A program made the translations under genes and the position numbers. DNA of 42,630 bases from Candidatus Poribacteria bacterium (lineage in GTDB: Bacteria; Poribacteria; WGA-4E; WGA-3G). Location of the stretch: NCBI GenBank assembly GCA_022824265.1, contig JAJEAG010000044.1:1-42630 (forward strand), given 5' to 3'. Of the stretch, positions 4,857 through 35,671 are shown piece after piece. Numbering within the stretch: the first letter of the stretch is position 1; the number at the start of each line of letters is the position of its first letter. The notes under the pieces were generated by a model. The model did no database searches, was not told where the DNA came from, and worked only from the letters and a program-made list of their open reading frames with translations.

Positions 4857-4887
4857 AAATAACTCCTTTGATTTTAGCACAATCTAT

Positions 4888-11367: not shown

Positions 11368-12279
11368 ATGAAATATAGAGGATTAATCATTTATGTTGTC
11401 TTGACCATACTTGTCTTTTCCATATACGGTTTTGTCATAAGAGATGGATCGTCAGGTAAGGAGACAGGAGAAGTCTCAGGACATTCCATCATCAAAAATA
11501 AAGGCTCGGATACTATGGTCAATTTAGCACAGGCATGGGCTGAAGTGTATTCCGGTATTTCTGACACTGTATCAGTTGAGGTGTCAGGTGGCGGATCAGG
11601 AACAGGCGTTGCTGCATTGATCAATGGCACTGTTGATATTGCCAACTGTAGTCGACAGATAAAACCTAAAGAGAAGGAAGAGGCAACGAAAAACACTGGT
11701 AAAGAACCCATTGAGTTCATTGTTGGATATGATGCACTCGCTGTCTATGTCCATAAAGAAAATCCCTTAAACAAAATTACTATCCCAGAACTCGCAGAAA
11801 TATATGGAGAAGAAGGAACGATAACCAGGTGGGATCACCTCGGCATTGCTAATTCTGGATGCAGAAGTGATAAAATCATACGTATTAGCAGACAGTCAAA
11901 CTCAGGTACATATTTTTACTTCAGAGAAGCACTTCTTGGTAAAGAGCGCGATTTTGAATCGGGATCGTTAGATTTACACGGTTCGAAAGATGTGGTGGAA
12001 GTTATTGGACGTACACATTGTGCTATCGGCTATAGTGGTATGGGGTATGCAACAGACCATGTGAAGATGTTAGAGGTTGCAACCACAGATGATCAACCAT
12101 ACTATGCACCAAACCTTGAGAACGTAATAGCAAAAACATACCCAATTGCACGTCCTCTATACATGTATTCTCTCGGTGAACCAACGGGAGAAGCAAAAGC
12201 ATATCTGGATTGGATTTTGTCTGATGAAGGACAAAAGATCGTTGAGGAACTTGGATTTGTTCCGTTAACAAAAAACTGA
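11368..12279 (+). CDS. pstS: phosphate ABC transporter substrate-binding protein PstS
   Basis: The 303-residue protein has an N-terminal membrane segment (about 6-24) and a PstS-like binding domain. The phosphate loops are visible as KGSDTM (about 45-50), SGGGSGTGVAALING (about 74-88) and RQSNSGTYFYF, which match known phosphate-binding serines and threonines. It captures inorganic phosphate outside the inner membrane for the PstCA channel. There is no lipobox, so it is either anchored by the N-terminal helix or released after cleavage. It is the first gene of the operon, 16 nt before pstC, with a terminator and an extended -10 promoter upstream. Confidence 0.95.
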   Translation: MKYRGLIIYVVLTILVFSIYGFVIRDGSSGKETGEVSGHSIIKNKGSDTMVNLAQAWAEVYSGISDTVSVEVSGGGSGTGVAALINGTVDIANCSRQIKPKEKEEATKNTGKEPIEFIVGYDALAVYVHKENPLNKITIPELAEIYGEEGTITRWDHLGIANSGCRSDKIIRISRQSNSGTYFYFREALLGKERDFESGSLDLHGSKDVVEVIGRTHCAIGYSGMGYATDHVKMLEVATTDDQPYYAPNLENVIAKTYPIARPLYMYSLGEPTGEAKAYLDWILSDEGQKIVEELGFVPLTKN

Positions 12280-12295
12280 AGGGCTTCTTGTTTTA

Positions 12296-13573: not shown

Positions 13574-13596
13574 CACTGGGAACTATCAAGGAATTT

Positions 13597-14514
13597 ATGA
13601 ATACCGAAACTGATATATCTGCACAGGACATGTTTACTGAAACAGCCATCGGAAAACAGAACAGGCATATAGAGAATGTGGTCAAAATATTCTTCCTCAT
13701 AATGACCTGTTTGATGATTCTGCCATTGCTTCTAATTATCGGATACCTTTTCTACAAGGCACTGCCAGTGCTGTCTCTTGATTTTCTGTTTACAAATCCG
13801 AAGGATAACATGCGGACTGGTGGCGTGTGGGCACCGTTCTTGGGAACAATATATCTGGTCGTGGTTTCGCTATTGGTTGCAGCTCCGATTGGCGTGTTTG
13901 CTTCTGTCTACTTGAATGAGTATGCAAGTGATAATTGGTTTACGCGTATAGTCAACTTGGCAGTAGTGAACCTGGCAGGAGTACCAAGTATTGTGCATGC
14001 ACTGTTCGGTGTTGGGGCATTTGTGTTGTTTGCTGGTTTAGGTGAGTCAATACTTGCCGCATCCCTAACATTAGCAATTATGACATTACCTGTTATCATC
14101 GCAAGCACAACAGAAGCACTCAAAGCCGTACCGATGTCTTTCCGTGAAGCATGCTGGAATCTCGGGGCAACACGTTGGCAAACGATTCGTAGGATTGTTC
14201 TACCAAACTCAATAAGTGGTATTCTAACTGGTGTGATTTTACAGGTATCCCGTGCTGCAGGTGAAACAGCCCCTATTATGTTCACTGGAGCAGTATTTTT
14301 TAAACCTATTGCAGAAGGTGACTTTTTTGCATATAATATATTTGACCAGTGTATGGCACTTTCATTACACCTCTATACAATTTCTACACAGGTGCCGGAT
14401 GTTACAGAAGGTATTCCTTATGGGACTGCGATTGTACTTGTTGGTAGTGTCCTACTTGTGAATGCAGCTTCAATAATACTGAGGGTATATCTTAGAACGC
14501 GTAAAAGGTGGTAG
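13597..14514 (+). CDS. pstA: phosphate ABC transporter permease PstA
   Basis: The 305-residue integral membrane protein has six predicted spans. The motifs NLAGVPSIVHALFGVGAFV and the EAA loop SFREACWNLGATRWQTIRRIVLP are typical of PstA, the second half of the phosphate channel. The loop docks onto the PstB ATPase. AAGGAATTT precedes the ATG. It follows pstC by 23 nt. Unlike in standard pst operons, pstB does not come next: a potassium channel gene and repeat DNA (about 1.27 kb) intervene. Confidence 0.93.
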   Translation: MNTETDISAQDMFTETAIGKQNRHIENVVKIFFLIMTCLMILPLLLIIGYLFYKALPVLSLDFLFTNPKDNMRTGGVWAPFLGTIYLVVVSLLVAAPIGVFASVYLNEYASDNWFTRIVNLAVVNLAGVPSIVHALFGVGAFVLFAGLGESILAASLTLAIMTLPVIIASTTEALKAVPMSFREACWNLGATRWQTIRRIVLPNSISGILTGVILQVSRAAGETAPIMFTGAVFFKPIAEGDFFAYNIFDQCMALSLHLYTISTQVPDVTEGIPYGTAIVLVGSVLLVNAASIILRVYLRTRKRW

Positions 14515-14611
14515 TCTTGGTATATGGGACGTGGGTGCATGTCACTGGTATCCTCAATCTCATAAACGAGGACAACTATCTCGCCAGAGGGCGTATTATA
14601 GGATGTTACCC

Positions 14612-15361
14612 ATGTTGAATGATGTTAACAATGAATACACAGGTTTTCGAAAAGACTTATACGAAATAATAGAAGGACCTGTTATTAGTGGGATTATTCA
14701 ATTTTTGATTCTCGCTTCTGCAATAGCCTTCGTTCTTGAGACTGAATCTGCATTTGATAAATATGAATCCTATTTTGTAATAATAGATTGGTCGTTTTTA
14801 ACGCTTTTTTCAATAGAATATATTTTACGTGTCTACACCGCACCCGATAGGAAAGGATTTATATTCAGTTTCTTCGGTATAATTGATCTACTTGCGATTT
14901 TACCTGCTCTCGTGCTTATTCCTGGGTTTCGTGTGCTACGTGTTCTCAGATTCTTACGGATATTCAGAATCTTTAAAGCAACACGATTCGTCTTGGCAGT
15001 GGATAGAATGATCGAGGCGTTAGGTGAAGTCAGAAGGGAACTTCTGGCACTTGTAATTCTATGCTCACTGTTTGTTTATTTAGCTGCATGTGGAATCTAT
15101 ATCTTTGAAAAAGACGCACAACCTGAGTCATTTGGTTCTATACCAGACGCTATGTGGTGGGCAATTGTATCGCTAACAACTATTGGATATGGTGATGTGT
15201 ATCCCGTAACCCCTGGCGGTAAAATCTTCACTGCATTGGTTGCCTTAGTAGGTGTAGGACTTATTGCTATTCCATCTGGATTATTAGCTTCCGTTCTAAC
15301 TGAAGCAAGGGTGGAAGAGGAACTTCAAGACGAGGGCGATGGTGATAAAGATGAAAAATAG
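14612..15361 (+). CDS. voltage-gated K+ channel (Kv-type)
   Basis: The 249-residue protein has the six-helix plan of a Kv/KvAP channel. S1-S3 lie at about 20-105. S4 carries five arginines at every third position (R107, R110, R113, R116, R119), and the pore loop has the K+ selectivity filter TTIGYGD at 189-195 before S6. It should conduct K+ across the inner membrane in response to voltage. ATG 14612 is chosen because AGGA lies 8 nt upstream; a longer GTG frame from 14531 has no ribosome binding site. It lies inside the pst gene run, 97 nt after pstA. A possible role is charge compensation during phosphate uptake, but this is speculative. Confidence 0.9.
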   Translation: MLNDVNNEYTGFRKDLYEIIEGPVISGIIQFLILASAIAFVLETESAFDKYESYFVIIDWSFLTLFSIEYILRVYTAPDRKGFIFSFFGIIDLLAILPALVLIPGFRVLRVLRFLRIFRIFKATRFVLAVDRMIEALGEVRRELLALVILCSLFVYLAACGIYIFEKDAQPESFGSIPDAMWWAIVSLTTIGYGDVYPVTPGGKIFTALVALVGVGLIAIPSGLLASVLTEARVEEELQDEGDGDKDEK

Positions 15362-15605
15362 CAATGGGATTCTACAGAAGATTCTTGCATTTGTTGTTCT
15401 GTTGATCGTATTTCTTTTCTTCTCAGCATATTGTATATACCTATTTGAAAGATCGGAACAACCTAATTTGTTTCATTCAATCCCTGCAGCATTATCGTCC
15501 GTATTTCTAACATTTTTCACTGTTGGGTATTCAAGGATTCTCTACTATTTGCGAGTTATCTTAGGGATCGTAACTCGTAGAAAAGTATGTTTTATACATA
15601 TCTGA
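15351..15605 (+). pseudogene. truncated second K+ channel (S5-pore remnant)
   Basis: The 84-residue frame overlaps the end of the full-length channel by 11 nt. It matches that channel's S5-pore region: YCIYLFERSEQPNLFHSIPAA aligns with GIYIFEKDAQPESFGSIPDA, and FFTVGYSR takes the place of LTTIGYGD. S1-S4 and S6 are missing and the filter is broken (GYGD to GYSR). It ends just before the GCCCC palindromes. It is probably the remnant of a tandem channel or pore-module duplication. It could still be translated, through coupling with the upstream gene. Confidence 0.6.
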
Positions 15606-15607
15606 AC

Positions 15608-15671
15608 AGCCCCAGCGGGGCGGAATGTGTATAGAACATGAAACTCCCAGACACAAAGCCCCAGCGGGGCG
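15608..15671. repeat. two copies of GCCCC-AGC-GGGGC palindrome
   Basis: AGCCCCAGCGGGGCG occurs at 15608-15622 and 15657-15671, each a hairpin with a 5-bp stem of GC pairs in AT-rich surroundings, spaced 49 nt start to start. The pair resembles small dispersed GC palindromes (REP/MITE-like) known from several phyla. They fill the gap between the channel remnant and pstB1. Confidence 0.7.
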
Positions 15672-15782
15672 ACAGGTGGAAAAACAAAACTGGTTAGGAT
15701 GCACAGCATTTCATTAAACAAATTTCAGATAACTATTAAAATTGTCCAAACTATAGTAATAATTTAGCGAAGCGAGGATTAA

Positions 15783-16538
15783 GTGGAAAACAAAATTGAA
15801 ATTGCCAATCTAAAGGTGTCTTACGGAGATACACAAGCTTTGAATGGCATTTCCTTGAATGTTCATCCCAACGAGATACTTGGAATCATAGGTCCAGCAC
15901 AATCAGGAAAAACAACACTGTTAAAGGTCATCAATCGCACTTTAGAATTCAATCAAGGAATTTCCGTTGAAGGCACTGTAAAGTTAGACGGTGTAGACAT
16001 AAATTCAATTGGTGATGTTTATGGGTTGCGTAGACGAATCGGTATGGTTCTTCCTTTGCCAGTGGGGTTGCCACTTACCATCTACGATAACGTTGCCTTC
16101 GCTCCAAGGACAGCAGGAATCCGAAATAAAGCAGAAATAGATGAAATCGTTGAACGATGTCTACAGCAAGCAGCATTATGGGATGAAGTTAAAGATAGAT
16201 TGGATTCTCTCGGAACAAAACTCTCAGGAGGGCAACAGCAACGGTTGACCATTGCACGCGCACTATCGCACCAACCTGAAGTTCTGTGTCTGGATGAATT
16301 CTCAATTGCTGTTGATCCGATTACAACGATGCGTATTGAAGATGTTCTAAAGACACTCAAAAACGAGATGACGATATTGCTCGTTACAAATTTAGTTCAA
16401 CAGGCGAAACGATTGGCTAATCGCACCGCGTTTATGCTAAACGGAGATCTAATTGAAATTGACGAAACAGATGTTATTTTCTCGGATAATCCTTCGAATC
16501 GATCCACCTATGACTATGTAAACGGGAACTTTGGGTAA
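15783..16538 (+). CDS. PstB-like ATPase 1 (signature intact, Q-loop and switch His lost)
   Basis: The 251-residue ATPase aligns along its length with PstB, which powers phosphate uptake by docking on PstCA. Walker A is GPAQSGKTT (37-45) and Walker B with the catalytic glutamate is LCLDE (168-172), but the usual proline after DE is F173. The signature LSGGQ (147-151) is intact. The Q-loop glutamine is P91 (GMVLP where PstB has GMVFQ), and the switch histidine is N203 (VTN for VTH). It starts at GTG 15783 with GAGG 7 nt upstream. PstB2 begins 20 nt downstream. On its own it should hydrolyse ATP poorly; see the heterodimer finding. Confidence 0.9.
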   Translation: MENKIEIANLKVSYGDTQALNGISLNVHPNEILGIIGPAQSGKTTLLKVINRTLEFNQGISVEGTVKLDGVDINSIGDVYGLRRRIGMVLPLPVGLPLTIYDNVAFAPRTAGIRNKAEIDEIVERCLQQAALWDEVKDRLDSLGTKLSGGQQQRLTIARALSHQPEVLCLDEFSIAVDPITTMRIEDVLKTLKNEMTILLVTNLVQQAKRLANRTAFMLNGDLIEIDETDVIFSDNPSNRSTYDYVNGNFG

Positions 16539-16558
16539 CGGGATAGAGGAGTATACAC

Positions 16559-17332
16559 TTGGAAACAAATAACTTCAGTATTGAAACAGAGAATCTTAGT
16601 CTCTGGTATGGTGATTTTCAGGCACTTATGGATGTAAGTGTGAAAATTCCCGATGGTAAAATCACTGGTCTTATTGGACCTTCTGGGTGTGGAAAAACGA
16701 CTCTTCTCCGCTGTTTTAACCGTGTAAATGAGCGATACGGCAACGTTACAACAAAGGGAGAAATAAAGATATTAGGTAAGAATATCTACGATTCGGATGT
16801 TTCACTGTTGGAGTTGAGAAAAACTGTGGGTATGGTATTTCAACGTCCAAACCCATTGCCAATATCAGTCTATGACAATATACTCTTCGGTTTACGGATA
16901 CATTCACAGTTTAGGAGTCTAACACGTACACAATCTGATGAAATCGTTGAAGAAGCATTAACCTCCGTTTTTCTATGGGATGATTTAAAGGATAAATTGA
17001 AAACACGAGCAACATCACTGCAACTTGAACAGCAACAGAAACTATGTATTGCCCGGTTGTTACCGTTGAAACCAAAGATAATCTTGATGGATGAACCTTG
17101 CTCAGCACTTGATGCCAAGGGCACACTTGCTGTTGAAGAACTGATGTCAGTCCTCGCTGGAACATATACTTTTTTAATTGTGACACATAATATGGCACAA
17201 GCACGACGAATTAGCGATGAGTGCATATATATGTTTCTTGGTGAGTTGATAGAACATCGGGAAACGCAAGCACTTTTTGAAACCCCTGAACATCCGAAAA
17301 CAGCAGATTATGTGCAAATGCGCTACGGATAG
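16559..17332 (+). CDS. PstB-like ATPase 2 (signature motif lost)
   Basis: This 257-residue PstB paralogue keeps Walker A GPSGCGKTT (40-48), the Q-loop Q95 (GMVFQRPNP), Walker B ILMDEP (175-180), the D-loop SALDA and the switch H210 (VTHNM). The ABC signature that should read LSGGQ is LQLEQ (154-158), followed by the usual QQ-KLCIAR. It therefore supplies a complete nucleotide-binding face but no functional signature face. The start is TTG 16559, with AGAGGAG 7-8 nt upstream. It is 20 nt after PstB1 and on the same transcript. By motif count it is the most PstB-like of the three on the Walker side. Confidence 0.9.
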   Translation: METNNFSIETENLSLWYGDFQALMDVSVKIPDGKITGLIGPSGCGKTTLLRCFNRVNERYGNVTTKGEIKILGKNIYDSDVSLLELRKTVGMVFQRPNPLPISVYDNILFGLRIHSQFRSLTRTQSDEIVEEALTSVFLWDDLKDKLKTRATSLQLEQQQKLCIARLLPLKPKIILMDEPCSALDAKGTLAVEELMSVLAGTYTFLIVTHNMAQARRISDECIYMFLGELIEHRETQALFETPEHPKTADYVQMRYG

Positions 17333-17427
17333 GTCAAATTCAACAATAAATCAAGAGATTTTTGTTCCCATACTTGTCCCTTACGCCTGTCCGATGCAAG
17401 CATTTCTTTAGAAAAAATGCTAATATC

Positions 17428-18156
17428 ATGAACAGGTCAAATCTGTTATATAATGTCATCGCTATAGTAATACTTGCATTAGTTTTATTTATGTTCTGGA
17501 ACTTCGCAGCATCAACGTCTTATGTTGAGGGTAAAATCACATCTGGCGGGGTAGTTATAGATACTTTGTCCACAATTTATGGGTATCTTTACGGAATGAT
17601 CCCGATATGTTGTGTTCTTATTCTCTTTAGTCTTGCAGTAGCATTTTACTTAGAAGAATGGTTATCACATAGATCTTGGCAGTATCGTATTATTGAACGG
17701 ATAATTGCAATTTTTGCATGTATTCCATCATTAGTATATGGCTTATTCTGTGCTTACTTTATAGTTGTCAAATCACAGCAGATTTCTTATCTCACGCTAA
17801 CAATTGCTGTTTTCTTCATTGTGGTTCCTGTTACAATTCGGACAACACAACAAGTGATTCAAAAAGTTGACTTATCTGTTCGTGAAGCGGCGTATGCTCT
17901 GGGTGCAAAGCGAATGCGTGTAATTGCTGACCATGTTATTCCAAACACCTTTCCGATGATATTGACAGGAATATTCACAACAATTTCACGAGTTCTTGCA
18001 ATTGCGGCACTATTTATTGTAATTTGCGGATGGAAAATCACTGAATCAAATTCAAAACATTCTTTTGATATTCCAAATAATGCTATTGTTCTTCTATCAT
18101 CCGCACTTCTGTTCAGTGTTATCTCATGTTTATTTGAAAAGAAAAAGTCTCTTTGA
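17428..18156 (+). CDS. extra PstA/PstC-like permease
   Basis: The 242-residue membrane protein (from ATG 17428) has about six spans and an EAA loop, SVREAAYALGAKRMRVIADH, with a following IP, so it is a PstA/PstC-type permease and diverges strongly from the first pair. Other recognisable elements are FACIPSLVYGLF (compare PstA GVPSIVHALF) and a final membrane span. It is shorter than PstA here (305). It lies between two pstB-like genes without a second permease partner, so it may form a homodimer or replace PstA or PstC in a variant channel. An in-frame TTG at 17362 would lengthen it, but that leader is not hydrophobic and has no good ribosome binding site. Confidence 0.75.
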   Translation: MNRSNLLYNVIAIVILALVLFMFWNFAASTSYVEGKITSGGVVIDTLSTIYGYLYGMIPICCVLILFSLAVAFYLEEWLSHRSWQYRIIERIIAIFACIPSLVYGLFCAYFIVVKSQQISYLTLTIAVFFIVVPVTIRTTQQVIQKVDLSVREAAYALGAKRMRVIADHVIPNTFPMILTGIFTTISRVLAIAALFIVICGWKITESNSKHSFDIPNNAIVLLSSALLFSVISCLFEKKKSL

Positions 18157-18236
18157 TAAAATAAAACAAGATTAAACTATAATCTTCATTGTCAGACACA
18201 GTTTCTTAACATTATTAAAATTGGATTTATTGAGGA

Positions 18237-19007
18237 ATGCCCCAACAAAGTAATCTTTCCACTCTTCACATAAGTGAATTGAATGTTTGGTATGGCAAAA
18301 ACCAGATTCTTAAAAACCTGACATTTGATGTGTTATCTAAGCAGGTTACAGCCTTTATTGGACCATCAAATTCTGGCAAAACTACTTTGGTGCGTTGTTT
18401 GAACCGCTTAAATGATTTGTCTGTGGATTTTAGACACACCGGAAATATACTTTTTAAGGGGAAGAATATTTATGCCTCAAAGATAAATGCATCCGAAATA
18501 ACTAAACAGATAGGGATGATTTTTCAAAAGCCGATCCCTTTCAGTAAATCAATATATGACAATGTTGCCTATGGTGTGCGTATAGATGGTATAAAAGATA
18601 CTATACAACTCGACGATATTGTTGAGGATAGTCTTAGGAAGGCGCAGCTATGGGATGAGGTTTGTGACAACCTGCAATCTTCTCCTGATATTCTTTCTAA
18701 CGGGCAACAGCAACAACTATGTGTTGCTCGTGCATTAGCAGGTAATCCAGAGGTGCTAATTTTTGATGAACCGTGTGAACAACTGGACGCTACTGAAACC
18801 CCTAAATTGGAAGCAATAGTTCAGAGCCTAAAAACCCAATATACGTTAATCTTTGTTACCAACAAGAGAAGACAAGCAGCACGCGTATCAGACGTGGCTG
18901 GTTTCCTTTGTTGTGGTGAGTTGGTAGAATTCGGACAAACAGAACAGATTTTTACGAACCCAAAGGATAAACGGACTGAGGACTATGTTACAGGTAGATT
19001 GGGTTAA
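18237..19007 (+). CDS. PstB-like ATPase 3 (switch His lost, signature LSNGQ)
   Basis: The 256-residue PstB paralogue has Walker A GPSNSGKTT (42-50), Q-loop Q97 (GMIFQKP), Walker B LIFDEP (174-179) and D-loop EQLDA. The signature is LSNGQ (153-157), one step from LSGGQ, and the switch histidine is N209 (VTN). The Walker A site looks able to bind ATP, but without the histidine hydrolysis should be impaired. The ATG at 18237 is immediately preceded by GAGGA, an unusually tight spacing. It lies 80 nt after the extra permease gene and 22 nt before phoU. Confidence 0.88.
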   Translation: MPQQSNLSTLHISELNVWYGKNQILKNLTFDVLSKQVTAFIGPSNSGKTTLVRCLNRLNDLSVDFRHTGNILFKGKNIYASKINASEITKQIGMIFQKPIPFSKSIYDNVAYGVRIDGIKDTIQLDDIVEDSLRKAQLWDEVCDNLQSSPDILSNGQQQQLCVARALAGNPEVLIFDEPCEQLDATETPKLEAIVQSLKTQYTLIFVTNKRRQAARVSDVAGFLCCGELVEFGQTEQIFTNPKDKRTEDYVTGRLG

Positions 19008-19029
19008 GATAAATTGTAAGGAAGTTTAG

Positions 19030-19692
19030 ATGCAACATTACCTTGAATCAGAACTCAAAGAACTTCAGCACCAACTCCTTAAAATGGGTGGAATAGCGGA
19101 AAACATGTTGCGAGATGCTATTCAATCAGTTTTAAATCGTAATGAGGATCTGGCTCTACGGGTTATCGCAATCGATGATACAGTTGACAAGCTTGAGAAC
19201 GAAATTGAAGCGAGATGTATCCAGCTCATTGCACGCCACCAACCTGTAGCCTTTGAATTGCGGTATCTGACGATGGCAATGAAGGTAAACCGAAATATTG
19301 AAAGGTTAGCCGACAAATGTGTCTCTATTGCAAGACGTAGTCTTGAACTGTTGGAATTTCCGCCAATGCAGCCCTTCGTTGATCTCCCATCTATAACCCT
19401 AATTATACAAGAGATGGTAAAGGATGCACTTGATGCTTTGGTCAATCGAAACGCCGAACTTGCGAGAGAACTCAGAGAACGTGATGGCAAAGTTAATACT
19501 ATATACGAACAAATGGTCCGTGAACTATGCACTCTTTTGACTGACCAACCGCAACTCATACAAACCGGTATCAGTCATCTACTTCTTTTTCGTCATTTAG
19601 AACGAGTCGGCGACCTTGCAGCAAATATCGGTGAAGAGGTATATTACCTCGTTGAAGGTGAGGTAATTCGGCATACAAACATCCCTCGATAG
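19030..19692 (+). CDS. phoU: phosphate signalling complex protein PhoU
   Basis: The 220-residue protein is all-helical with two PhoU repeats (about 10-100 and 115-210). It carries the repeat hallmarks DDTVDKLENEIE (about 49-60) and RNIERLADKCVSIAR (about 88-102), with HLERVGDLAANIGE in the second repeat. PhoU binds the Pst transporter and a sensor kinase to signal phosphate sufficiency and restrain uptake, on the cytoplasmic side. GTAAGGAAG precedes the ATG. It is the last gene of the pst operon and converges with the mechanosensitive channel gene. No phoR/phoB pair is in the window. Confidence 0.95.
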   Translation: MQHYLESELKELQHQLLKMGGIAENMLRDAIQSVLNRNEDLALRVIAIDDTVDKLENEIEARCIQLIARHQPVAFELRYLTMAMKVNRNIERLADKCVSIARRSLELLEFPPMQPFVDLPSITLIIQEMVKDALDALVNRNAELARELRERDGKVNTIYEQMVRELCTLLTDQPQLIQTGISHLLLFRHLERVGDLAANIGEEVYYLVEGEVIRHTNIPR

Positions 19693-22450: not shown

Positions 22451-24766
22451 CTAATCAATTGCAATCTGTTCAATAGAATGAACGAATAAGACATCATTAA
22501 CATCTTGGAAACGTTGCAGTACGTCTGTCAAGCGGTCGGAATTTATGTCTTCTGCTGTTATGCCGTAGATTACCAAATCTGCTTGAGCGGATCTATGTGC
22601 TACTTCTTGTTCTAATCCTTCCTCACTATCATAAGGTACAGAGGTGACATTCTGCATAGAAATAGGAAGTCTTCCTTCTTTGATAACATCTGAGAGTCTG
22701 TTAGCATCCAATTCAGCTTCCCAAGAACCGGAACATGCAAATAGACGGATCTTGGCACGTTTCCATTCAGGATGTCCCACAAGTATATATGCCAGCAACA
22801 ACATCATAGGCACATTGCTGATATTGTCATCGGTTACCCATACATGTATAGAGGAACGGTATCCAAAACGGTATTTCGTTGAACGTAGGATAAGGACATT
22901 GAATAGAGATGCAACAGCAAGTTGTGTGCCGAGTTTAACTTCGTCTATTTCTTCAGGATGGTTTTTATCGAATTCCAGTAGGATGGAGTTATTTGGCAAA
23001 CCACTAATCCCAGGCATCTGGAGAGCGTGAGCCAAGGCAAGAGGGAAGGTTGGACAAATAAGCGAATCTACAAAGATACCAGCACCACTTGCCTCAGATT
23101 GTTGAATTAATGCTTCAACATGAATACGTGCAGTAATTTCTTCTGTAAAAGAATATTCTCCAGGGAAAAATTGGATAAAGTGTCCAAATCCTTGTCTATG
23201 GCATATCCAACGTAGGAGGTCAAAATGACCGAGACGTCGTTCTCCGAATTGTGTTATCGCAACGATGGAAGGTCGCCAACCACTGTCGGATGCACCTGCT
23301 CTGCTTTTCTGTAGTGTCGTCTGAAGCCATCTTGTTAATTGAAACATCGTCCCTTGAAATATACCTGTGATACCGAGAGGTTCACGGTTTCCGCGACGAA
23401 GTCCAATATAGATTGCGAGCATGATAAATATTGAAAGGGATGCATAGAACACATCTATCTGGAGCATCATTAAACCGCACATTACGGTTCCTAAGAGTGA
23501 TACATACCATCGTGAATGGAATGTTGGTCGGTAAGATGGATTTCCTGCAAAATGTTCAAGAAATGACACAATGCATAATGCGCCATAAGTAACAAGAAAG
23601 AACATGGTTAGAATCCGAGCGATGAAGTTTAGTTCTCCAATAGCAACGAACACCAGTGCAACTGCACCAGAGACGAAAGTTGCGGGAATCGGTTCTTGAC
23701 TTTTTCCTACACCTGTTCGCATGAGCCGGTTTAAACCTGGTATGGGTAAAACGTCGTCTCTTCCAAGTGCTTGCAGTGTTCTGGGAGCAATCATAATAGA
23801 ACCGAGTGCTGATGATAACGATGCTGCACCTAATCCAATAAATATTGCTGGTCCCCAAGCAGAGATTTTTGCCATTATAAATGGGTCATTCGCAAGAAAT
23901 TCAGGTAATGCACTTTGACATAGCTTAAATGCCACAAATATATATATAACCATACCAGCAAGTGTAGCACTGATAGTTCCAAGTGGGATACTCCGTTGTG
24001 GATTCTTCAAATCACCGGATAACCCTAAACCAGCAATCATCCCTGTAAAGGCAGGAAAACAGATAGCAAATACTTTACCAAAAGAATCAGCACCATCCTT
24101 TATTCCTTCCGTGATATTTAATGTTTCAGGACGAAATGGCACCTCGACCCCTTCAACCAATATGGTAGTACCTGGATTTCCAAGAAAAAATGTAGTAAGT
24201 GATACAGTCAGAATTCCACAGATCAACCATAACATTGAAACCCCAATGTTGGCACCTTTCGTCAACATAATGATGATAAGAATCAATGTGCCTGGGATGC
24301 TGATCCACCGGACATCAATAGCTTCCTTAAAGAATTCTGGATATTTTGCTACAAACATATCTAGTACAGGTTGAAAAGCTTCGGCAAATGCGACCATGTA
24401 AAATGCTATTGAAATTGCTTGCGAAATATACAGTGCTATTCCAATAGTACCACCGATACTTGTTCCGAATGAACGGCTAACGATATAGTAGGCACCACCA
24501 CCAGCAACTCTACGGTTTGTTGCTACTTCTGAAACGGCAAGTACTGTTGGAATAGTTACCAGATGTCCAAGCACAATGATCGCAAGACTTTTCAAAAACC
24601 CGACATGACCTACTGCATAACCGAACCGTAGGAATAGTATTGCCCCCAATATAGTACTTATTGAGGCAAGAAAGACAGGAGCAGTACCAAATCCATGTCC
24701 ATGTTGTTCAACACCATTGTTCCAATCAGAACCCGACTGATTTGGTTGTTTCAATTTCGAAAACAT
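22451..24766 (-). CDS. SLC12-type cation-chloride cotransporter / APC-superfamily permease
   Basis: The 771-residue protein opens with the cation-chloride cotransporter signature around TAPVFLASISTILGAILFLR (about 28-47) and VAGGGAYYIVSRSFG (about 88-102). About twelve spans follow to about residue 465, then a soluble C-terminal domain (about 480-771) like that of SLC12 proteins. Members co-transport K+ and/or Na+ with Cl-; some bacterial homologues are annotated as amino-acid permeases. The ion set cannot be told from sequence. The ATG at 24766 has GAAGGAA 8 nt upstream. It sits beside CorA, MscS and the K+ channel in an ion-homeostasis stretch. A degraded copy of its 3' end occurs at 20965-21113. 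Confidence 0.88.
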   Translation of the reverse strand: MFSKLKQPNQSGSDWNNGVEQHGHGFGTAPVFLASISTILGAILFLRFGYAVGHVGFLKSLAIIVLGHLVTIPTVLAVSEVATNRRVAGGGAYYIVSRSFGTSIGGTIGIALYISQAISIAFYMVAFAEAFQPVLDMFVAKYPEFFKEAIDVRWISIPGTLILIIIMLTKGANIGVSMLWLICGILTVSLTTFFLGNPGTTILVEGVEVPFRPETLNITEGIKDGADSFGKVFAICFPAFTGMIAGLGLSGDLKNPQRSIPLGTISATLAGMVIYIFVAFKLCQSALPEFLANDPFIMAKISAWGPAIFIGLGAASLSSALGSIMIAPRTLQALGRDDVLPIPGLNRLMRTGVGKSQEPIPATFVSGAVALVFVAIGELNFIARILTMFFLVTYGALCIVSFLEHFAGNPSYRPTFHSRWYVSLLGTVMCGLMMLQIDVFYASLSIFIMLAIYIGLRRGNREPLGITGIFQGTMFQLTRWLQTTLQKSRAGASDSGWRPSIVAITQFGERRLGHFDLLRWICHRQGFGHFIQFFPGEYSFTEEITARIHVEALIQQSEASGAGIFVDSLICPTFPLALAHALQMPGISGLPNNSILLEFDKNHPEEIDEVKLGTQLAVASLFNVLILRSTKYRFGYRSSIHVWVTDDNISNVPMMLLLAYILVGHPEWKRAKIRLFACSGSWEAELDANRLSDVIKEGRLPISMQNVTSVPYDSEEGLEQEVAHRSAQADLVIYGITAEDINSDRLTDVLQRFQDVNDVLFVHSIEQIAID

Positions 24767-27695: not shown

Positions 27696-29648
27696 ATGGA
27701 CAATCAACCTACCGTATTATCAAAACCCTCTCAAATTCCTACCCACGGAGTTACATTCAAATCCATACTAATTGCTACTGTCCTAATCCCTATAAATTGC
27801 TACTGGGTAATTGAAATGGAGGTAATCCGATATTCAGGGCATCCAGTAACGATTTCACTCTTTTTTAATGTTATTTTTAGTTTGTTTGTGCTAATAGGGT
27901 TTAACCAATTGTTGCGCCGTTTTCTACCACGTATTGCATTGGTTCAAAGCGAATTGGTCATTGTTTATCTCATGCTATCTATTGCATCAGGAATAACAGG
28001 ACACGATATGTTGGAAATATTGGTGCCGATGTTAGGACATGCATTCCGCTTTGCGACTCCAGAAAATGAATGGCAGCAGTTGTTTTTACCGTTCCTCCCA
28101 GAATGGCTTACGGTTAGTAATAATAGGTTATTACAAGGTTATTATGAAGGAGATCTACCACTTTATACAATTGAGACCTTATTTGGTTGGGCAACACCTG
28201 TCTTGTGGTGGACAGCATTTATCAGTGTATTAGTATTCGGTATGCTGTGCATAAATGTAATCATACGCAAACAGTGGATTGAATATGAAAAACTCAGTTA
28301 TCCAATAATACATCTGCCACTTAATCTAACAGAAACGGATCATAATCGATTTTTTAAGAATAAATTAATGTGGTTAGGATTTGGCATTGCTGGGGGTTTG
28401 GCATTATGGAACGGAATCAGTTTTTTATTTCCATTTCTACCTGAATTACGTACCCGTAATCAGAGTTACCAGATTTTCACAGAGAGTCCTTGGAACGCTA
28501 TGGGTAGAATTCCGTTTTCGCTATATCCATTTGCTATTGGTCTTGGATTTTTCATTCCACTTGATCTCTCATTTTCTTGCTGGTTTTTTTTCTGGTATTG
28601 GCGTTTATTACGGGTAGTGGGTGCAATGTTTGGATTTAGAAATCTCCCCGGCTTTCCATATATGCACGAACAAGCATCTGGGGGATATCTGGCATTGTGC
28701 GTATTGGCTATATGGGCAAGTCGACGACATCTTCTCCATGTGGGGCAAATGATATTTGGTCGAAACACATCTCAAGAGGATACAGATTCTCCGATCTCAT
28801 ACGGCGCAGCGGTTTTTGGTCTGATTGCAGTGATGATTGCTTTGGTTATATTTTGTTACTATGGTGGTGCAAACGTTTGGGTGATGTTTGCATTTTTTGC
28901 TATATATTATATGATTTCTATAGCAATCACCCGTATGCGTGCGGAGTTAGGTACGCCTGTTCATGACTTGCACTATTCCGGACCTGATCAAATTTTAACA
29001 CGGGTCATAGGAACACGACGGTTAGGTAGAGATAATCTCATCATGTTCTCAATGTTTTGGTTCATCAACCGGGCATATAGGAGTCATCCGATGCCACACC
29101 AATTGGAAGGATTTAAAATAATTGAACGCACGAACATGACGATGCGTAGGATCGTCTTTGCTTTGATGTTAGCAACCGTATTGGGGTCATTGGCAGGTTT
29201 TTGGTCATTAATTGATAGAGGATATCAATTAGGTATGGAAGTGCGAGCTTCCTCTCCATCCTTGACAGCATTTGGTATTGAACCGTATCGACGTTTAGCA
29301 GGCTGGCTTCAATCTTCATCTGACACACTCATACCAGAAAGTGGGTTTATGGGATTTGGTTTTCTAATGACAACTGTGTTGATGTTATGCCGCATGCGTT
29401 TTGTGTGGTGGCCGTTTCATCCTGCTGGGTTTGCTATTTCTACAAGTTGGGGCATGAATGTTACATGGGGTTGTCTTTTCATGAGTTGGTTAATTAAACT
29501 GATTATTCTCAAGTATGGTGGACCTGTGAAATATCGTAAGATAGCCCCTTTTTTCTTGGGTCTTATTCTTGGAGAATTCACAGTAGGAAGTATCTGGACG
29601 ATTATAGGAATTGTTGGGGGAATACCAACCTACGGTTTCTGGGTTTAA
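27696..29648 (+). CDS. DUF6785/DUF6784 multi-spanning membrane protein
   Basis: The 650-residue integral membrane protein has at least ten hydrophobic spans. It matches the recalled DUF6785/DUF6784 pattern found in uncultured diderm lineages: an N-terminal TFKSILIATVLIPINCYW span, ELVIVYLMLSIASGITGHDM, WIEYEKLSYPIIHLPL, a central FWYWRLLRVVG region and a C-terminal EFTVGSIWTIIGI. The layout resembles oligopeptide (OPT-like) transporters, but a substrate cannot be named. It is a single gene; its stop codon overlaps the stop of the convergent P-type ATPase-like gene by 4 nt. No strong ribosome binding site precedes the ATG. Confidence 0.75.
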   Translation: MDNQPTVLSKPSQIPTHGVTFKSILIATVLIPINCYWVIEMEVIRYSGHPVTISLFFNVIFSLFVLIGFNQLLRRFLPRIALVQSELVIVYLMLSIASGITGHDMLEILVPMLGHAFRFATPENEWQQLFLPFLPEWLTVSNNRLLQGYYEGDLPLYTIETLFGWATPVLWWTAFISVLVFGMLCINVIIRKQWIEYEKLSYPIIHLPLNLTETDHNRFFKNKLMWLGFGIAGGLALWNGISFLFPFLPELRTRNQSYQIFTESPWNAMGRIPFSLYPFAIGLGFFIPLDLSFSCWFFFWYWRLLRVVGAMFGFRNLPGFPYMHEQASGGYLALCVLAIWASRRHLLHVGQMIFGRNTSQEDTDSPISYGAAVFGLIAVMIALVIFCYYGGANVWVMFAFFAIYYMISIAITRMRAELGTPVHDLHYSGPDQILTRVIGTRRLGRDNLIMFSMFWFINRAYRSHPMPHQLEGFKIIERTNMTMRRIVFALMLATVLGSLAGFWSLIDRGYQLGMEVRASSPSLTAFGIEPYRRLAGWLQSSSDTLIPESGFMGFGFLMTTVLMLCRMRFVWWPFHPAGFAISTSWGMNVTWGCLFMSWLIKLIILKYGGPVKYRKIAPFFLGLILGEFTVGSIWTIIGIVGGIPTYGFWV

Positions 29649-32371
29649 TTAATTTCTTTCCTCGGGTTGATAGCCAGATTTAAAGGTAAAAGGAGTAAGA
29701 TAATACAGCATAAACCTGTTATTATCCATTCTTGTTGAAGTGGAACTATACCTAATATATTTCGCATTGGTTCAATATACATAGAAGACACGTGAATACA
29801 AATTGCTAATATGAGTATAAAAAGTAACCTAATATTTATAAACATTCTTTTAAACAGAGATTCCCAGGGGTATCGTACGCATTGGAAGTAGGAAAATATC
29901 TGAGCTAAAACCAGAGTTGTGCAAGCTGCGGTTTGTGCCTCTATGAGATTTGATTCGGTTGATGTAGTTGTTACTACCAAAAAATGGATTATCGTCATTA
30001 GACTGATTACAAAACTGCGACATACGATATCAAAGACAGCAGTTTTTGGAATCAGTAAGGTTACTCTTCTTGGTAAATGTTGTTTTACATTGACAGATAT
30101 TCTATCGTATCCTAATCCTATAGCTGGAATCATCGTGGTTAAAAATTGAATCCAGATAACATGTGTTAGTGTTAGAGGCATCTCAAAGTTGAATGCTCTG
30201 GATAATATTAATCCAAAAATGACTGTCAAAAATTGCGTGAGTGTGCATGAAAGGCACCACCGAAGTGCCCCTGATAGGTTGTTATAAGCCTCACGTGCAT
30301 AGAGAAGACAATCTTTAACTGCTTTGAATCCTTTATCAACAATCAGACAATCTGCATGGTCTTGTGCGAAATGTGTAGCGTAACTTGTATCGGCAAATGC
30401 AAGATTAGCAGCAATCATTGCACGTTGATCTTTCGAATACTGTCCTAAGTACCCTACAGAATGATTATGTCGTTTTAAGCTAAGCACAATATCCCGACGT
30501 TGTTCTTGGGTTGGTTGTGAATAAGCATTCCAATTTGGCACTTCTTTATCAAACTCTTGCGTTGAGAGATTAATGAGTTCATCTCTTGTTCCAACCGAAT
30601 TACGTGTATGTATTAACCCAAGTTCTTTTGCTAAATCAGTTGTTGATTGTTCATTACTATCACTAATAAGGATGACCTTTAATCCGGTATCAAGGAAAGA
30701 TTTAATCACATTTTTTGTTTCATCAGTATCAGTGACAGAGAAACCGATGAATCCTAAAAAGGTAGATGCTCCTTGAACTTCCGATGGATTAAGCGGTACA
30801 TCGGAGTGTATAGTGGCAACCCCGTAAACCATATCTCTGGTATTTTGCATGTATTTGAGTGTTTCAATATATATCTCGTATTGATCCTGATAGAAACCGG
30901 TGATTTCACCGTTGATAAGGATTGAATTGCATGCTTCAAGCACATTACTTGCGTTCCCAAAAATTAGGTTGAGATACTCATTTTCATCTGATTCAAATAC
31001 ATGGAGTTCATATCCGAAATTTGGGGTCCATGGGTATTCAGCAACAAGACGCATATCTGATTTAAGATCTGTCAACTTGTATCCAAGTTGATCTAGTGTT
31101 TCTCTGATAACATGCTGATGTACGTGATCAATATCGGTTCTATCATAGTAACGTTCACCAGAAGTACCCAATCCAGCTGCCAGAACGAGACCCGGAGCAC
31201 CTTGAGGGATTTGGAAGCTTGGAGGTATATTGTTGACTCGATTACTTTTTTCTTCTGGGGTATATGAATCAAGCGATTGTAACCACTTTTCCCATGCCGA
31301 TCTATTAACCAATTGTTCATCAACAAAAATATTTGAAATTGTAAGAGATTTAGTGCTTGCGATTCCTTTTTCATCAGAACAAAAAGCTGTTAAACGGTTT
31401 AATTTCTCAAAGAAATTTCTATTCCGAAGGACTATACCCTTTTTAAGTAATTTGAAGGTATTCAAATCAAGTATTGCTTGTAGTAGTAAATTTAGGTTAT
31501 AAGGTGTTGCGGCGATTGCAAATATTAGACCAACATGAATAAGCTCCATCCAATTAGGTTGTTCATTTAGTTGTGATGTTTGCCACCAATCAATAGCAAC
31601 TGCTAATCCACCCACAACCAAACCCGTCACCAATAGAATATCATGAAAAAACTTAATCTGATTTTCGGCAACAGTCATTTCATTCGGCATAGGACGGTTA
31701 GGAGCATGGTTCTGATTCATTTCCAACTCATCACCGATTTTAACAACGATTGCTTGACCTATTCCTGTATCAACATAAGTGCCACCAAAAACCATATTGG
31801 TTTGTCTTTCTGGTGGTAGACCTACTTCGTCTATTTCCTGTGTAGTCTTATCAGCTGATCCGCTACTTCCAAATAAACCAGATTCATTTACAGTTAAACC
31901 ATCTGCTTCAACGATACGTGCATCTGCTGGAATGTAATTACCTGGTCTAAGTAGTAAGAGATCACCAGGTACAATATCAGATGAGGGGCATTTCTCTTGC
32001 TTTCCTTGTCGAATAACTGAAACGGTTAGGTTGAAATGCAATTTAAGTCGGTTTTTCTTTTTCTGTAAACTAATTACAACAATTATAGACCATGAAATAG
32101 AAAGAACAACAATTGCACTAATAAGTATAATTGTCGTTACTTTATTCAAGAGTCCGAATACAACTATTGCGATAACTAAAAATAGTAATCTCCAGTTAAA
32201 TATATGCTCAAAAAAAGATCCAATTTGCAAAGAATCGATTTGAGATTTCGGTTCATTTTTACCATAACGAATTTGTAGGTCCTCTACATCAGAATGGTTT
32301 AACCCGGCTTCCAAATCGGTATTAAATTGGTTTAGCAGAAAAGAGATGCTTTCTGCATAAAAATTAGACAT
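29645..32371 (-). CDS. P-type ATPase-like pseudoenzyme
   Basis: The 908-residue protein has the full P2-type (Ca2+/cation) ATPase plan: an N-terminal cation-ATPase domain (1-60), M1-M2, the actuator domain (about 105-215), M3-M4 (about 245-300), the P/N domains (about 320-720) and six C-terminal spans. Every catalytic signature is changed. TGES is FGSS (167-170), the M4 PEGL is PYNL (290-293), DKTGT is DEKGI (333-337, aspartate kept), and TGDGVNDAP is replaced by LGQYSKDQR. The frame is uninterrupted. It should not pump by the normal cycle and may be a regulator or carrier. ATG 32371 has AGGAAAG upstream and is preferred to GTG 32389. It lies 59 nt downstream of thrB on the same strand. Confidence 0.85.
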   Translation of the reverse strand: MSNFYAESISFLLNQFNTDLEAGLNHSDVEDLQIRYGKNEPKSQIDSLQIGSFFEHIFNWRLLFLVIAIVVFGLLNKVTTIILISAIVVLSISWSIIVVISLQKKKNRLKLHFNLTVSVIRQGKQEKCPSSDIVPGDLLLLRPGNYIPADARIVEADGLTVNESGLFGSSGSADKTTQEIDEVGLPPERQTNMVFGGTYVDTGIGQAIVVKIGDELEMNQNHAPNRPMPNEMTVAENQIKFFHDILLVTGLVVGGLAVAIDWWQTSQLNEQPNWMELIHVGLIFAIAATPYNLNLLLQAILDLNTFKLLKKGIVLRNRNFFEKLNRLTAFCSDEKGIASTKSLTISNIFVDEQLVNRSAWEKWLQSLDSYTPEEKSNRVNNIPPSFQIPQGAPGLVLAAGLGTSGERYYDRTDIDHVHQHVIRETLDQLGYKLTDLKSDMRLVAEYPWTPNFGYELHVFESDENEYLNLIFGNASNVLEACNSILINGEITGFYQDQYEIYIETLKYMQNTRDMVYGVATIHSDVPLNPSEVQGASTFLGFIGFSVTDTDETKNVIKSFLDTGLKVILISDSNEQSTTDLAKELGLIHTRNSVGTRDELINLSTQEFDKEVPNWNAYSQPTQEQRRDIVLSLKRHNHSVGYLGQYSKDQRAMIAANLAFADTSYATHFAQDHADCLIVDKGFKAVKDCLLYAREAYNNLSGALRWCLSCTLTQFLTVIFGLILSRAFNFEMPLTLTHVIWIQFLTTMIPAIGLGYDRISVNVKQHLPRRVTLLIPKTAVFDIVCRSFVISLMTIIHFLVVTTTSTESNLIEAQTAACTTLVLAQIFSYFQCVRYPWESLFKRMFINIRLLFILILAICIHVSSMYIEPMRNILGIVPLQQEWIITGLCCIILLLLPLNLAINPRKEIN

Positions 32372-32430
32372 ATTCTTTCCTAACGTCACTCGTTTTGGAC
32401 AACAGTAATGATATAATATAGAGAAATGGA

Positions 32431-33348
32431 TTATGTATTATCGGAGATGAGACTTGCCCCATTTACATCAGTTCCTATCACCAGTATATCACTTGGTATT
32501 TCGTGTTGCTTAAAGACATTTTGCATGTTTTTTCCTACTTCTTGCATGTTATCAAGACAATATGCAGCGATAGTTGGTCCCGCACCACTCAACGCGATAC
32601 TTAGTGCACCTGCTGATAAAGCAGCTTCAACAACATCATCAAATCCAGGGATAAGCGTGCTGCGATATGGTTGGTGCAGCTTATCTTTCATTGCAGTAGA
32701 CAACATCTCCAATTGACCTGTAGCGACACATGCCACCAGTAGTGAACTACGACTAATATTATAGATAGCGTCAGAAAAATCTACTGTTTTTGGCAATATG
32801 TTCCGTGCTTTCTGTGTGGATAATGTAAACTCTGGAATTGCAAGTACTACATGTAATGCTGGGTCACATTTTAACTGTATAGTGTGTATATGTTTATCTT
32901 CTTGGACAGAAATAACCAAACCACCATACAAAGATGCAGCGACATTATCAGGATGTCCCTCAAGGGTTGACGCAATATTGAGGATATCTGACCGAGAAAA
33001 CGGATTCTCACACAATAGATTCGCTGTCAATAATCCGCCAAGAATAGCAGTACCACTACCACCTAACCCACGAATGGCAGGGATACCATTCGAAATTGTC
33101 AATTTTAATCCCTTGGGTTGCGTTTTTCCACTCTTCTTATATACGGTTTCTACTGCTTGAAATGCAATGTGTTCAGTACTATTCGGTATTTTGTCAGCAT
33201 CAATGCCACTCACCACAACTTCAGTCTTGTTCCCGGTTATTTCTAAAGTTACAGTGCTATAGAGTTGCAATGCAAGACCAAGTACATCAAAGCCAGGCCC
33301 CAGATTTGTAGTGCTGGCAGGAATGCGCGCGGTTGCTTTTAAGGACAT
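32431..33348 (-). CDS. thrB: homoserine kinase
   Basis: The 305-residue GHMP kinase phosphorylates homoserine to O-phosphohomoserine, the step before threonine synthase. N-terminal PASTTNLGPGFDVLGLAL (10-27) is typical of ThrB. The ATP loop GLGGSG is at 94-99, and the C-terminal GHMP motif LSGAGPTIAAY is near residue 275. It is cytoplasmic. It starts 22 nt after the aminotransferase gene, suggesting a small amino-acid operon. No thrC or thrA is seen. Confidence 0.95.
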   Translation of the reverse strand: MSLKATARIPASTTNLGPGFDVLGLALQLYSTVTLEITGNKTEVVVSGIDADKIPNSTEHIAFQAVETVYKKSGKTQPKGLKLTISNGIPAIRGLGGSGTAILGGLLTANLLCENPFSRSDILNIASTLEGHPDNVAASLYGGLVISVQEDKHIHTIQLKCDPALHVVLAIPEFTLSTQKARNILPKTVDFSDAIYNISRSSLLVACVATGQLEMLSTAMKDKLHQPYRSTLIPGFDDVVEAALSAGALSIALSGAGPTIAAYCLDNMQEVGKNMQNVFKQHEIPSDILVIGTDVNGASLISDNT

Positions 33349-33370: not shown

Positions 33371-34543
33371 CTACAACTTTGCTAATGCAGTGTCGATTCG
33401 ACTTAATGCATCGTTAATATTATCCAAAGAATTGGCATAAGATAATCTGAGGTAACCATCACCATATTTTCCGAAAGCAGTACCAGGCAATAGTGCGACA
33501 CCAACTTCATCCATCAAATAGTCAGCAATTGCTTCACACGATTGGGGTAGTTGTGTGACATTCGGAAAAACATAGAACGAACCGAGTGGTTTGACACACG
33601 AGATTCCATCTATAGCATTTAATCCATCAACAATAGTATCTCTGCGTAATCTAAATTCCTCTACCATTTCTGAAACAAAATTTTGGGGACCAGTCAATGC
33701 TTCAATACCAGCAATTTGTGTAAAAGTTGCTGTACATGAATTTGAGTTGATAGTCAACTGTGTTATCTTGTCAGCGATCTCGCGCGGAGCAATTCCATAT
33801 CCAAGTCTCCAACCGGTCATAGCGTATGTTTTTGAATGACCGTCAATCAGTATAGTGCGTTCTTTCATTCCTGGGAGACTGATGACACTTTTGTGGGATC
33901 CTTCGTAAAGTAGGCGAGAATAAACTTCGTCAGTCAGGATATAGAAATTGTGTTTTTCGGCGAGTTCGGCAATGGTTTTGAGATCAGTTTCTGTAAGTGT
34001 TCCGCCAGTTGGGTTTTGTGGAGAATTGAGTATCAGTAATTTTGTGCGATCAGAAATTGCATTGATTAAATCCTCAATTCTAAAGCGGAAGTCTACCTCT
34101 TCACGAAGAGCAAGAGGAACGGCTTTGCCGCCAATAAAATCAATCACCGATTCGTAAACTGGGAAACCGGGTTCAGGATAGATTACTTCATCACCATCAT
34201 CTATTAGAGCTAAAATAGTGAAGAAAATAATTGGTTTGGCACCAGGAGTGACAGTCACTTCGTCAGGATGTATGTCAACACCTCGCGTCTCAGCAATATG
34301 TTGTGCAACAACTTCTCTAAATTCGGGTAACCCTGCTGATGGACAATAACCTGTATGTCCATCCTTCATAGCCTTGTATGCTGCTTCACAAACATTCATT
34401 GGGGTCGAAAAGTCTGGTTGACCTATTTCTAAATGAATAATATCTCTGCCTTGTGCTTCTAAGCTTTTTGCTTTGGCTAATACTTCAAATGCCGATTCTG
34501 TTCCCAAGCGACTCATCCGCTTGGCGAATGTAGGGCTTACCAA
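33371..34543 (-). CDS. class I/II PLP-dependent aminotransferase (aspartate aminotransferase-like)
   Basis: The 390-residue fold-type I aminotransferase carries the motifs LEIGQPDF (38-45), LNSPQNPTGG (172-181), DEVYSRLLYEG and the PLP lysine K238 in GHSKTYAMTGWRLGY. It is closest to the AspC-1c/prephenate-type aspartate aminotransferases, which make aspartate from oxaloacetate. Aspartate feeds threonine synthesis, in keeping with thrB 22 nt downstream. The start is TTG 34543: AAAAGGAGG lies 6 nt before it, and the longer frame (34564) starts inside that ribosome binding site. Substrate specificity is inferred, not shown. Confidence 0.92.
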   Translation of the reverse strand: MVSPTFAKRMSRLGTESAFEVLAKAKSLEAQGRDIIHLEIGQPDFSTPMNVCEAAYKAMKDGHTGYCPSAGLPEFREVVAQHIAETRGVDIHPDEVTVTPGAKPIIFFTILALIDDGDEVIYPEPGFPVYESVIDFIGGKAVPLALREEVDFRFRIEDLINAISDRTKLLILNSPQNPTGGTLTETDLKTIAELAEKHNFYILTDEVYSRLLYEGSHKSVISLPGMKERTILIDGHSKTYAMTGWRLGYGIAPREIADKITQLTINSNSCTATFTQIAGIEALTGPQNFVSEMVEEFRLRRDTIVDGLNAIDGISCVKPLGSFYVFPNVTQLPQSCEAIADYLMDEVGVALLPGTAFGKYGDGYLRLSYANSLDNINDALSRIDTALAKL

Positions 34544-34603
34544 AATAATCCTCCTTTTTGTCACACTGCGAGTTTATGTCGCATCATTGCCCTTTATAAT
34601 CCT

Positions 34604-34651: not shown

Positions 34652-35671
34652 CTATTCTGGTTTTATGATGAAACCGTTTGTCCCTACTAACCATGCATTT
34701 TGTTTATCAAGAATGGCTACCTTTTCCATCTTTACTTCTGATTCTTCGAGTGTCCAAGACTGTCCTCCATCGGTTGTGCTCAATACAACACCGACCCCGA
34801 TATCACCACCAACAGCCCATCCGATATTTTTATCTGCAAAACGTACGCTACGTATTATTTCTTCGGTGCCACTTGTTTGTTCTGTCCAAGTGTTTCCACC
34901 ATCATTCGTATGGAGTATAAGACCGTTTTCACCTACTGCCCAACCTACTGATGCATCGAGAAAGAAAATGTCTTCAAGAATATCCTCTTTTCCTGTCTCT
35001 TGTGGAGTCCACGTCTGCGCACCATCTTCAGTTTTTAAGATAACGGTTTTTTGTGTTTTTTCTGTAGGGAAAACTCGTACTCCTGCGACCCAACCATTTT
35101 GTTCGTCAATGAACTGAACAGCATTGAACATACTTGCATCGTCATCACCAACTTCTCCTACAATTCCACCTTGTAGAACTTTCCATTGTCGTCCACCGTT
35201 TTTTGTTGAAATAATGGTATCATTTTGTCCAACTGCGAATCCAACATCTTTGGAAACGAAATAGATACTTGTCAAGGTAGTTCCGACTTTACTAATTTGT
35301 ATATCCCAGTCTTTACCGTTGGTGGTATTGGCAATTATTCCTTTTTGTCCGACCACCCAACCGTGATTAGCATCAAAAAAATAGATTTCGGTCAGGTCTG
35401 ATTCCAACTTGATTTCTGATCTTTCCCATGTTTTCCCACCATCCATAGTAAATCCTATGAAACCAGGATTTTCAAAATCTTCAAAGGATGTACCTGCTGT
35501 CCACCCTGTTCTTTTGCTTGTAAATGCAATCGTCATATAATCACGAACAGCTGGATCACTTTGCTGCAGGATAACCCATCCTCCAATGGCAGGTAATGTA
35601 AATATCAAACTACATAATATAGTTAATTTAATGATATATGATTGGTGTAGAAATGACTTTAATCTGCTCAT
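34652..35671 (-). CDS. Ycf48-like BNR-repeat protein
   Basis: The 339-residue protein has an N-terminal hydrophobic leader (about 15-32, IKLTILCSLIFTLPAIGGW) and then about six repeats with the pattern GWxVG...T.DGG..W, typical of the photosystem II assembly factor Ycf48/HCF136 and BNR (Asp-box) beta-propellers. Repeats recur roughly every 45 residues. In non-photosynthetic bacteria such proteins are exported propellers of unknown function, perhaps binding glycans or proteins. AAAGGAGAAAA precedes the ATG, a good promoter lies upstream and a terminator follows, so it is likely monocistronic. Confidence 0.85.
   Translation of the reverse strand: MSRLKSFLHQSYIIKLTILCSLIFTLPAIGGWVILQQSDPAVRDYMTIAFTSKRTGWTAGTSFEDFENPGFIGFTMDGGKTWERSEIKLESDLTEIYFFDANHGWVVGQKGIIANTTNGKDWDIQISKVGTTLTSIYFVSKDVGFAVGQNDTIISTKNGGRQWKVLQGGIVGEVGDDDASMFNAVQFIDEQNGWVAGVRVFPTEKTQKTVILKTEDGAQTWTPQETGKEDILEDIFFLDASVGWAVGENGLILHTNDGGNTWTEQTSGTEEIIRSVRFADKNIGWAVGGDIGVGVVLSTTDGGQSWTLEESEVKMEKVAILDKQNAWLVGTNGFIIKPE

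Follow-up and report, generated by a model that had tools for sequence, protein, structure and literature searches.

P-type ATPases are defined by the phosphorylated aspartate of the DKTGT motif. In human TMEM94/ERMA this motif is replaced by DKQGI, GDGVND is replaced by GSSANL, and TGES is absent (PMC13322241). One cryo-EM study saw neither ATPase activity nor conformational change in TMEM94 (PMC12134183), and one group claims that the protein transports Mg2+ and that its Asp is essential (PMC13322241). P6 ATPases such as CtpE have neither the N-domain Lys nor the M6 Asp (PMC10654040), and TgATPaseP-GC of Toxoplasma, an apicomplexan guanylate cyclase with a P4-ATPase-like domain, keeps its DKTGT and KGAD motifs (PMC6592433). 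A literature search of partial coverage returned no bacterial pseudo-P-type ATPase and no bacterial family in which the Asp is lost and the rest is kept.

The window, by which we mean the whole 42,630-nucleotide stretch of Candidatus Poribacteria DNA that was analyzed, encodes a protein of this kind. We judge it, with a probability of about 0.8, to be a P2A (Ca2+-pump-like) ATPase whose catalysis was lost early in the phylum, and which has been inherited vertically, is kept by purifying selection and does not run a phosphoenzyme cycle. The gene and the replacements located in it by alignment are:

29645 to 32371, minus strand: pseudo-P2-ATPase, 908 amino acids plus stop, recognized from frame, Pfam, NCBIfam and predicted fold
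31862 to 31873, minus strand: FGSS for TGES; the A-domain dephosphorylation Glu is lost
31493 to 31504, minus strand: PYNL for PEGL; the M4 Pro is kept and the Glu is lost
31361 to 31375, minus strand: DEKGI for DKTGT in the phosphorylation loop
30953 to 30961, minus strand: FGN for KGA; the ATP-binding Lys of the N domain is lost
30656 to 30664, minus strand: SDS for TGD in the P domain
30497 to 30499, minus strand: Arg625 at the position of P-domain Lys684 (SERCA numbering), where 75 of the 76 homologues carry a Lys or Arg
30422 to 30445, minus strand: GQYSKDQR for GDGVNDAP; the first Asp is lost and the second is kept
30233 to 30244, minus strand: TLTQ in M5, with T..Q for the N..E cation ligands
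30134 to 30148, minus strand: QFLTT in M6, with Q..TT for the N..TD cation ligands

The frame runs on the minus strand from the ATG at 32371 to the stop at 29645 through 908 uninterrupted codons. This ATG is taken as the start over an upstream GTG at 32389 because orthologues begin with MSNFY at the ATG. Three Pfam domains score above their cut-offs (E1-E2_ATPase, 86.6 bits; Cation_ATPase_C, 72; Cation_ATPase_N, 28.5). The nearest curated families are the PMR1-type and SERCA-type Ca2+ pumps, with scores that are a fraction of their cut-offs, and the NCBIfam equivalog cut-offs are not reached (TIGR01522, 224 versus 798 bits; TIGR01116, 148 versus 703). Frame, Pfam domains and predicted fold confirm what the first-pass annotation of this DNA had proposed, namely that the whole P2-ATPase plan is present within a single 908-codon open frame. 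Its motif calls (DEKGI, FGSS, PYNL and the lost GDGVNDAP) proved exact once located by coordinates, and the N-domain KGA, the P-domain TGD and the ion-site residues of M5 and M6 are further losses that it had not listed. From these residues we infer that the protein is probably unable to run the Post-Albers (E1/E2 phosphoenzyme) cycle or to pump at the expense of ATP.

An AlphaFold2 model built with 29 sequences (pLDDT 78.8, pTM 0.68) shows the three cytosolic domains together with ten membrane helices, of which M4 is broken. Among the structural matches listed, all are P-type ATPases, including LMCA1 E1-Ca (836 residues aligned, Z 34.6) and SERCA E1 (TM-score 0.80). The alignment included 21 active-type pumps from viral_contigs loci, and the model therefore indicates compatibility with a P-type fold and is not independent proof of it; when eight close homologues were aligned alone, pLDDT was 34.

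The motif loss in the window is not a matter of chance, because 76 full-length homologues show the same pattern. Of the six catalytic residues, at most two survive in any of these proteins, and 42 of the proteins have none. Retention was calculated from an alignment of 62 homologues and 21 P2 pumps of the active type. Among 151 columns that are invariant or nearly so in the active pumps, 41 stay at 90% or above in the pseudo-pump family and 60 drop below 10%, with the catalytic columns belonging to those lost. The TGES Glu is retained in 2% of the aligned homologues, the first GDGVND Asp, the TGD Gly and the N-domain Lys in 0%, and the second GDGVND Asp in 98%. Retention of the cation ligands is 13% for the M4 Glu, 0% for both the Asn and the Glu of M5, and 6% and 0% for the Asn and Asp of M6. 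An A-domain core consisting of Arg121, Gly136, Asp137, Asp150, Arg152, Lys175, Asn192 and Gly203 is kept at 100%. Because the second GDGVND Asp is so widely retained and the Lys684 position nearly always holds Lys or Arg, the protein could retain a phosphate or metal site.

The first-pass annotation had remarked that the phosphoryl-accepting Asp position remains. It does in the window protein, and the residue is Asp in its genus, but 23 of the 25 sister-genus proteins in the alignment have Asn there, so the Asp of DEKGI is no marker of activity and its retention is not meaningful alone. The commonest sister-genus form of the motif in the full-length set is NExGL. The N-domain Lys, the first P-domain Asp and the M5 ligands are lost everywhere, but some lines still have the M4 Glu or the catalytic Asp. 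Of 13 more distant members of the order, 8 still have the M4 Glu, so the losses were stepwise. Other residues are newly fixed in all 54 order members, for example Phe167 (at the TGES Thr position), Arg704, Trp705, Arg833 and Trp836, and the cytosolic M8-M9 loop (FQCxRYPWESLFxR) and a C-terminal LPLN tail are also conserved.

A search of 85 Poribacteria genomes gave a match in 83. One of these matches (G002) is an intact P2 pump and not a member, and a member in G007 was added by profile search, so that pseudo-pump members, some of them fragments, occur in 83 of the 85 genomes. The sole same-genus genome without one is 81% complete. Orthologues that share the motif loss are accordingly present across almost the whole phylum, and none with intact motifs was found. 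Identity to the window protein is 64-93% within the genus (96% for a fragment in G033), 44-47% within the family, 33-37% for most of the order and 23-27% for most of the class, falling with kinship as expected under vertical descent. In a maximum-likelihood tree with long branches, a branch with an SH-aLRT of 100 has all family members on the same side. An order-only profile scores f6 and f8 members at 652-689 bits versus at most 467 for active-type pumps. This profile does not tell the f5, f7 and f9 members apart from active pumps; some may therefore have lost catalysis independently, and no shared loss is claimed for them by score. Synteny supports a shared loss event for f5 and f7, and f9 could represent a separate one.

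A search of 302 further genomes, all outside the phylum, gave P2 matches of which 40 of the best were read, and each of these has DKTGT and GDG[VI]ND. The best outside matches score at most 626 bits, versus at least 880 for nearly all full-length members, with a profile that was itself made from members of this kind. A search of viral contigs found no family member; its matches were all weak, and two lay on contigs that the active-pump query had already returned. Two loci in other Poribacteria genomes are irregular. In G006 (L073, 3907-6773) a homologue is split across two overlapping frames by a frameshift or an assembly error, and G001 (L056, L077, L078) has, besides a P2 pump that is intact but split over two contigs, a degenerate copy adjoining an LptF/LptG permease.

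Intact P2 pumps were found within the phylum only in its most distant members, G001 and G002. The other P-type ATPase of the window's own genome (contig 44) is P1B-like with intact DKTGT, TGES, CPC and GDGIND motifs, and no other P2-type ATPase was found in that genome. A search of the order for an intact P2 pump found none; its other P-type matches score as other classes, the sequence read among them being the P1B-like one of the window's genome. A conserved partner pump, which the first-pass annotation had suggested looking for, was thus not found in the order, and the pseudo-pump is not the partner of an intact P2 pump.

Pairwise dN/dS between the window protein and its counterparts in the two nearest species is 0.13 and 0.17, well below 1, as expected under purifying selection. 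For ThrB and the Ycf48-like protein the corresponding values are 0.10-0.12; the aminotransferase gives 0.06-0.08, and the P1B pump, which is intact in these genomes, gives 0.07-0.08. By segment, dN/dS is 0-0.05 in P1 with DEKGI, 0.08-0.10 in M5-M10 and 0.4-0.5 in M1-M2, although the short segments contain few sites. Few parts are as constrained as the DEKGI segment, and the motif is nearly fixed within the genus. Across the family, constraint is shifted relative to active pumps. The P1 loop is less conserved (pairwise identity 0.37 versus 0.80 in active pumps), and the A domain (0.43 versus 0.49) and M5-M10 (0.38 versus 0.40) are about equally conserved. M1-M2 and M3-M4 belong to the least conserved regions of the pseudo-pump.

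The gene is embedded in a conserved neighborhood:

27696 to 29648, plus strand: DUF6785/DUF6784 membrane protein, convergent, with a 4-base overlap with the pseudo-pump stop and conserved in the family
32431 to 33348, minus strand: homoserine kinase ThrB, immediately upstream in the same orientation, a conserved neighbor
33371 to 34564, minus strand: class I/II aminotransferase, a conserved neighbor
34652 to 35671, minus strand: Ycf48/PSII_BNR-like beta-propeller protein, a conserved neighbor

Further upstream and in the same direction as the pseudo-pump lies a FlgD_ig-like protein, along with neighbors that we take from their sequences to be PorV-like, PCMT-like and SppA-like. The full upstream gene order is kept across the window's family, and an aminotransferase-ThrB-pseudo-pump core is kept in f1, f2, f4, f6, f7, f8 and part of f3 (G016). 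In genus g9 the Ycf48-like/ThrB block is located elsewhere, without the pseudo-pump, and in two class-level genomes (G004 and G009) the pseudo-pump is kept and ThrB is not detectable. The operon link with the Ycf48-like protein, the aminotransferase and ThrB is conserved but not obligatory. Promoter and terminator scans gave results at chance level.

Elsewhere in the window, a phosphate-uptake cluster (11368-19692) contains three PstB-like ABC ATPases (15783-16538, 16559-17332 and 18237-19007) with the signature motifs LSGGQQQR, LQLEQQQK and LSNGQQQQ, respectively, of which the second and third look degenerate, and a voltage-gated K+ channel-like protein with a TTIGYGD filter (14531-15361). 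A MalG-kind ABC permease (628-2331) has an insertion of ~250-300 amino acids after its first membrane helix, an exported protein (3897-4880) apparently ends in an acylphosphatase-like domain (GKVQGVGFR), and a K-Cl cotransporter-like protein (22451-24766) scores 286 bits with TIGR00930, below the cut-off of 953.

The maintained pseudoenzyme envisaged by the first-pass annotation is supported by a loss that is common to orthologues, by dN/dS well below 1 and by the lack of any intact orthologue. Lost catalytic motifs could also mark a pseudogene in decay or an artifact of assembly or reading frame. However, 76 homologues have full-length open frames, in many assemblies of which some are single-contig, and together with dN/dS of 0.13-0.17 they bear out the earlier view that there has been no recent decay; the orthologues refute this reading, and its probability is negligible. 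If the protein is a pseudoenzyme, then a static membrane scaffold or a ligand- or lipid-responsive regulator is the role that we favor, at slightly worse than even odds. The constraint on the A domain, M5-M10, the M8-M9 loop and the C-terminal tail, with weak constraint on M1-M4, suggests that surfaces matter more than a transport path, which is why a scaffold or regulator is preferred. The A domain, the M8-M9 loop and the LPLN tail would then contact other proteins. A lipid lies near the M4 break of TMEM94, and by analogy with that structure the M4 cavity may hold a lipid or other ligand. It had been suggested that the protein is a regulator, an ion sensor or a passive carrier. The loss of the M4, M5 and M6 cation ligands is evidence against the ion-sensor and passive Ca2+-carrier versions, and the regulator remains in the favored reading.

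A transporter that works without ATP hydrolysis, whether a facilitator, a channel or a lipid scramblase, could use the ten-helix domain and the M4 kink. All 62 aligned homologues have M4 Pro290 and 97% have M6 Pro749, M5-M10 is strongly constrained, and the model retains the helices and the M4 break. This reading is nevertheless unlikely, since all canonical M4, M5 and M6 cation ligands are replaced in the window protein, the poor conservation of M1-M2 and M3-M4 is odd for a transport path, and the large cytosolic headpiece would be superfluous. We consider it distinctly less probable that the protein is a membrane regulator of the neighboring aspartate-family amino-acid genes (homoserine kinase and aminotransferase): the shared gene order agrees with such a role, but the separate block in g9 and the two genomes without detectable ThrB do not. 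It is highly unlikely that the protein still uses ATP or phosphate at a rearranged active site in which Glu334 or the second GDGVND Asp serves as a new catalytic group. Of 54 order members, 52 have Glu334 in place of the DKTGT Lys, the second Asp is nearly constant, and activity has been claimed for ERMA with DKQGI and without TGES. However, the phosphorylated Asp is Asn in most sister-genus orthologues, the N-domain Lys and TGD Gly are lost in all, and the replacements vary between families.

The pseudo-pump can be set beside several known systems. It resembles the P2A Ca2+-ATPases (Listeria LMCA1, SPCA/PMR1 and SERCA), which give the best profile and fold matches, in its A-P-N order, ten helices and A-domain core, and differs from them in that the phosphorylation, dephosphorylation, nucleotide and cation-site residues are replaced. 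P6 ATPases share the absence of the M6 Asp and N-domain Lys, but they have PEGL and are described as Ca2+ pumps. TgATPaseP-GC also places a P-type module beside another signaling activity, whereas the Poribacteria protein has no fused cyclase. The closest parallel is TMEM94/ERMA, which has a P-type architecture with similar motif losses, the two being likened by their motifs; its absence among the best PDB matches listed for the pseudo-pump is no exclusion of a closer common ancestry. Unlike the bacterial protein, TMEM94/ERMA is a eukaryotic ER protein that keeps the loop Lys, and its function is disputed. We tentatively suggest that the pseudo-pump may be the founder of a bacterial class of P-type folds that serve energy-independent transport, lipid handling or signaling in parallel to human TMEM94, which would show that this architecture is useful without a phosphoenzyme cycle. 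Natural dead pumps across a whole phylum separate the residues needed for the fold from those needed for catalysis, and they offer a simple bacterial counterpart to a disputed human disease protein in which to ask what the P-type fold does without its motifs.
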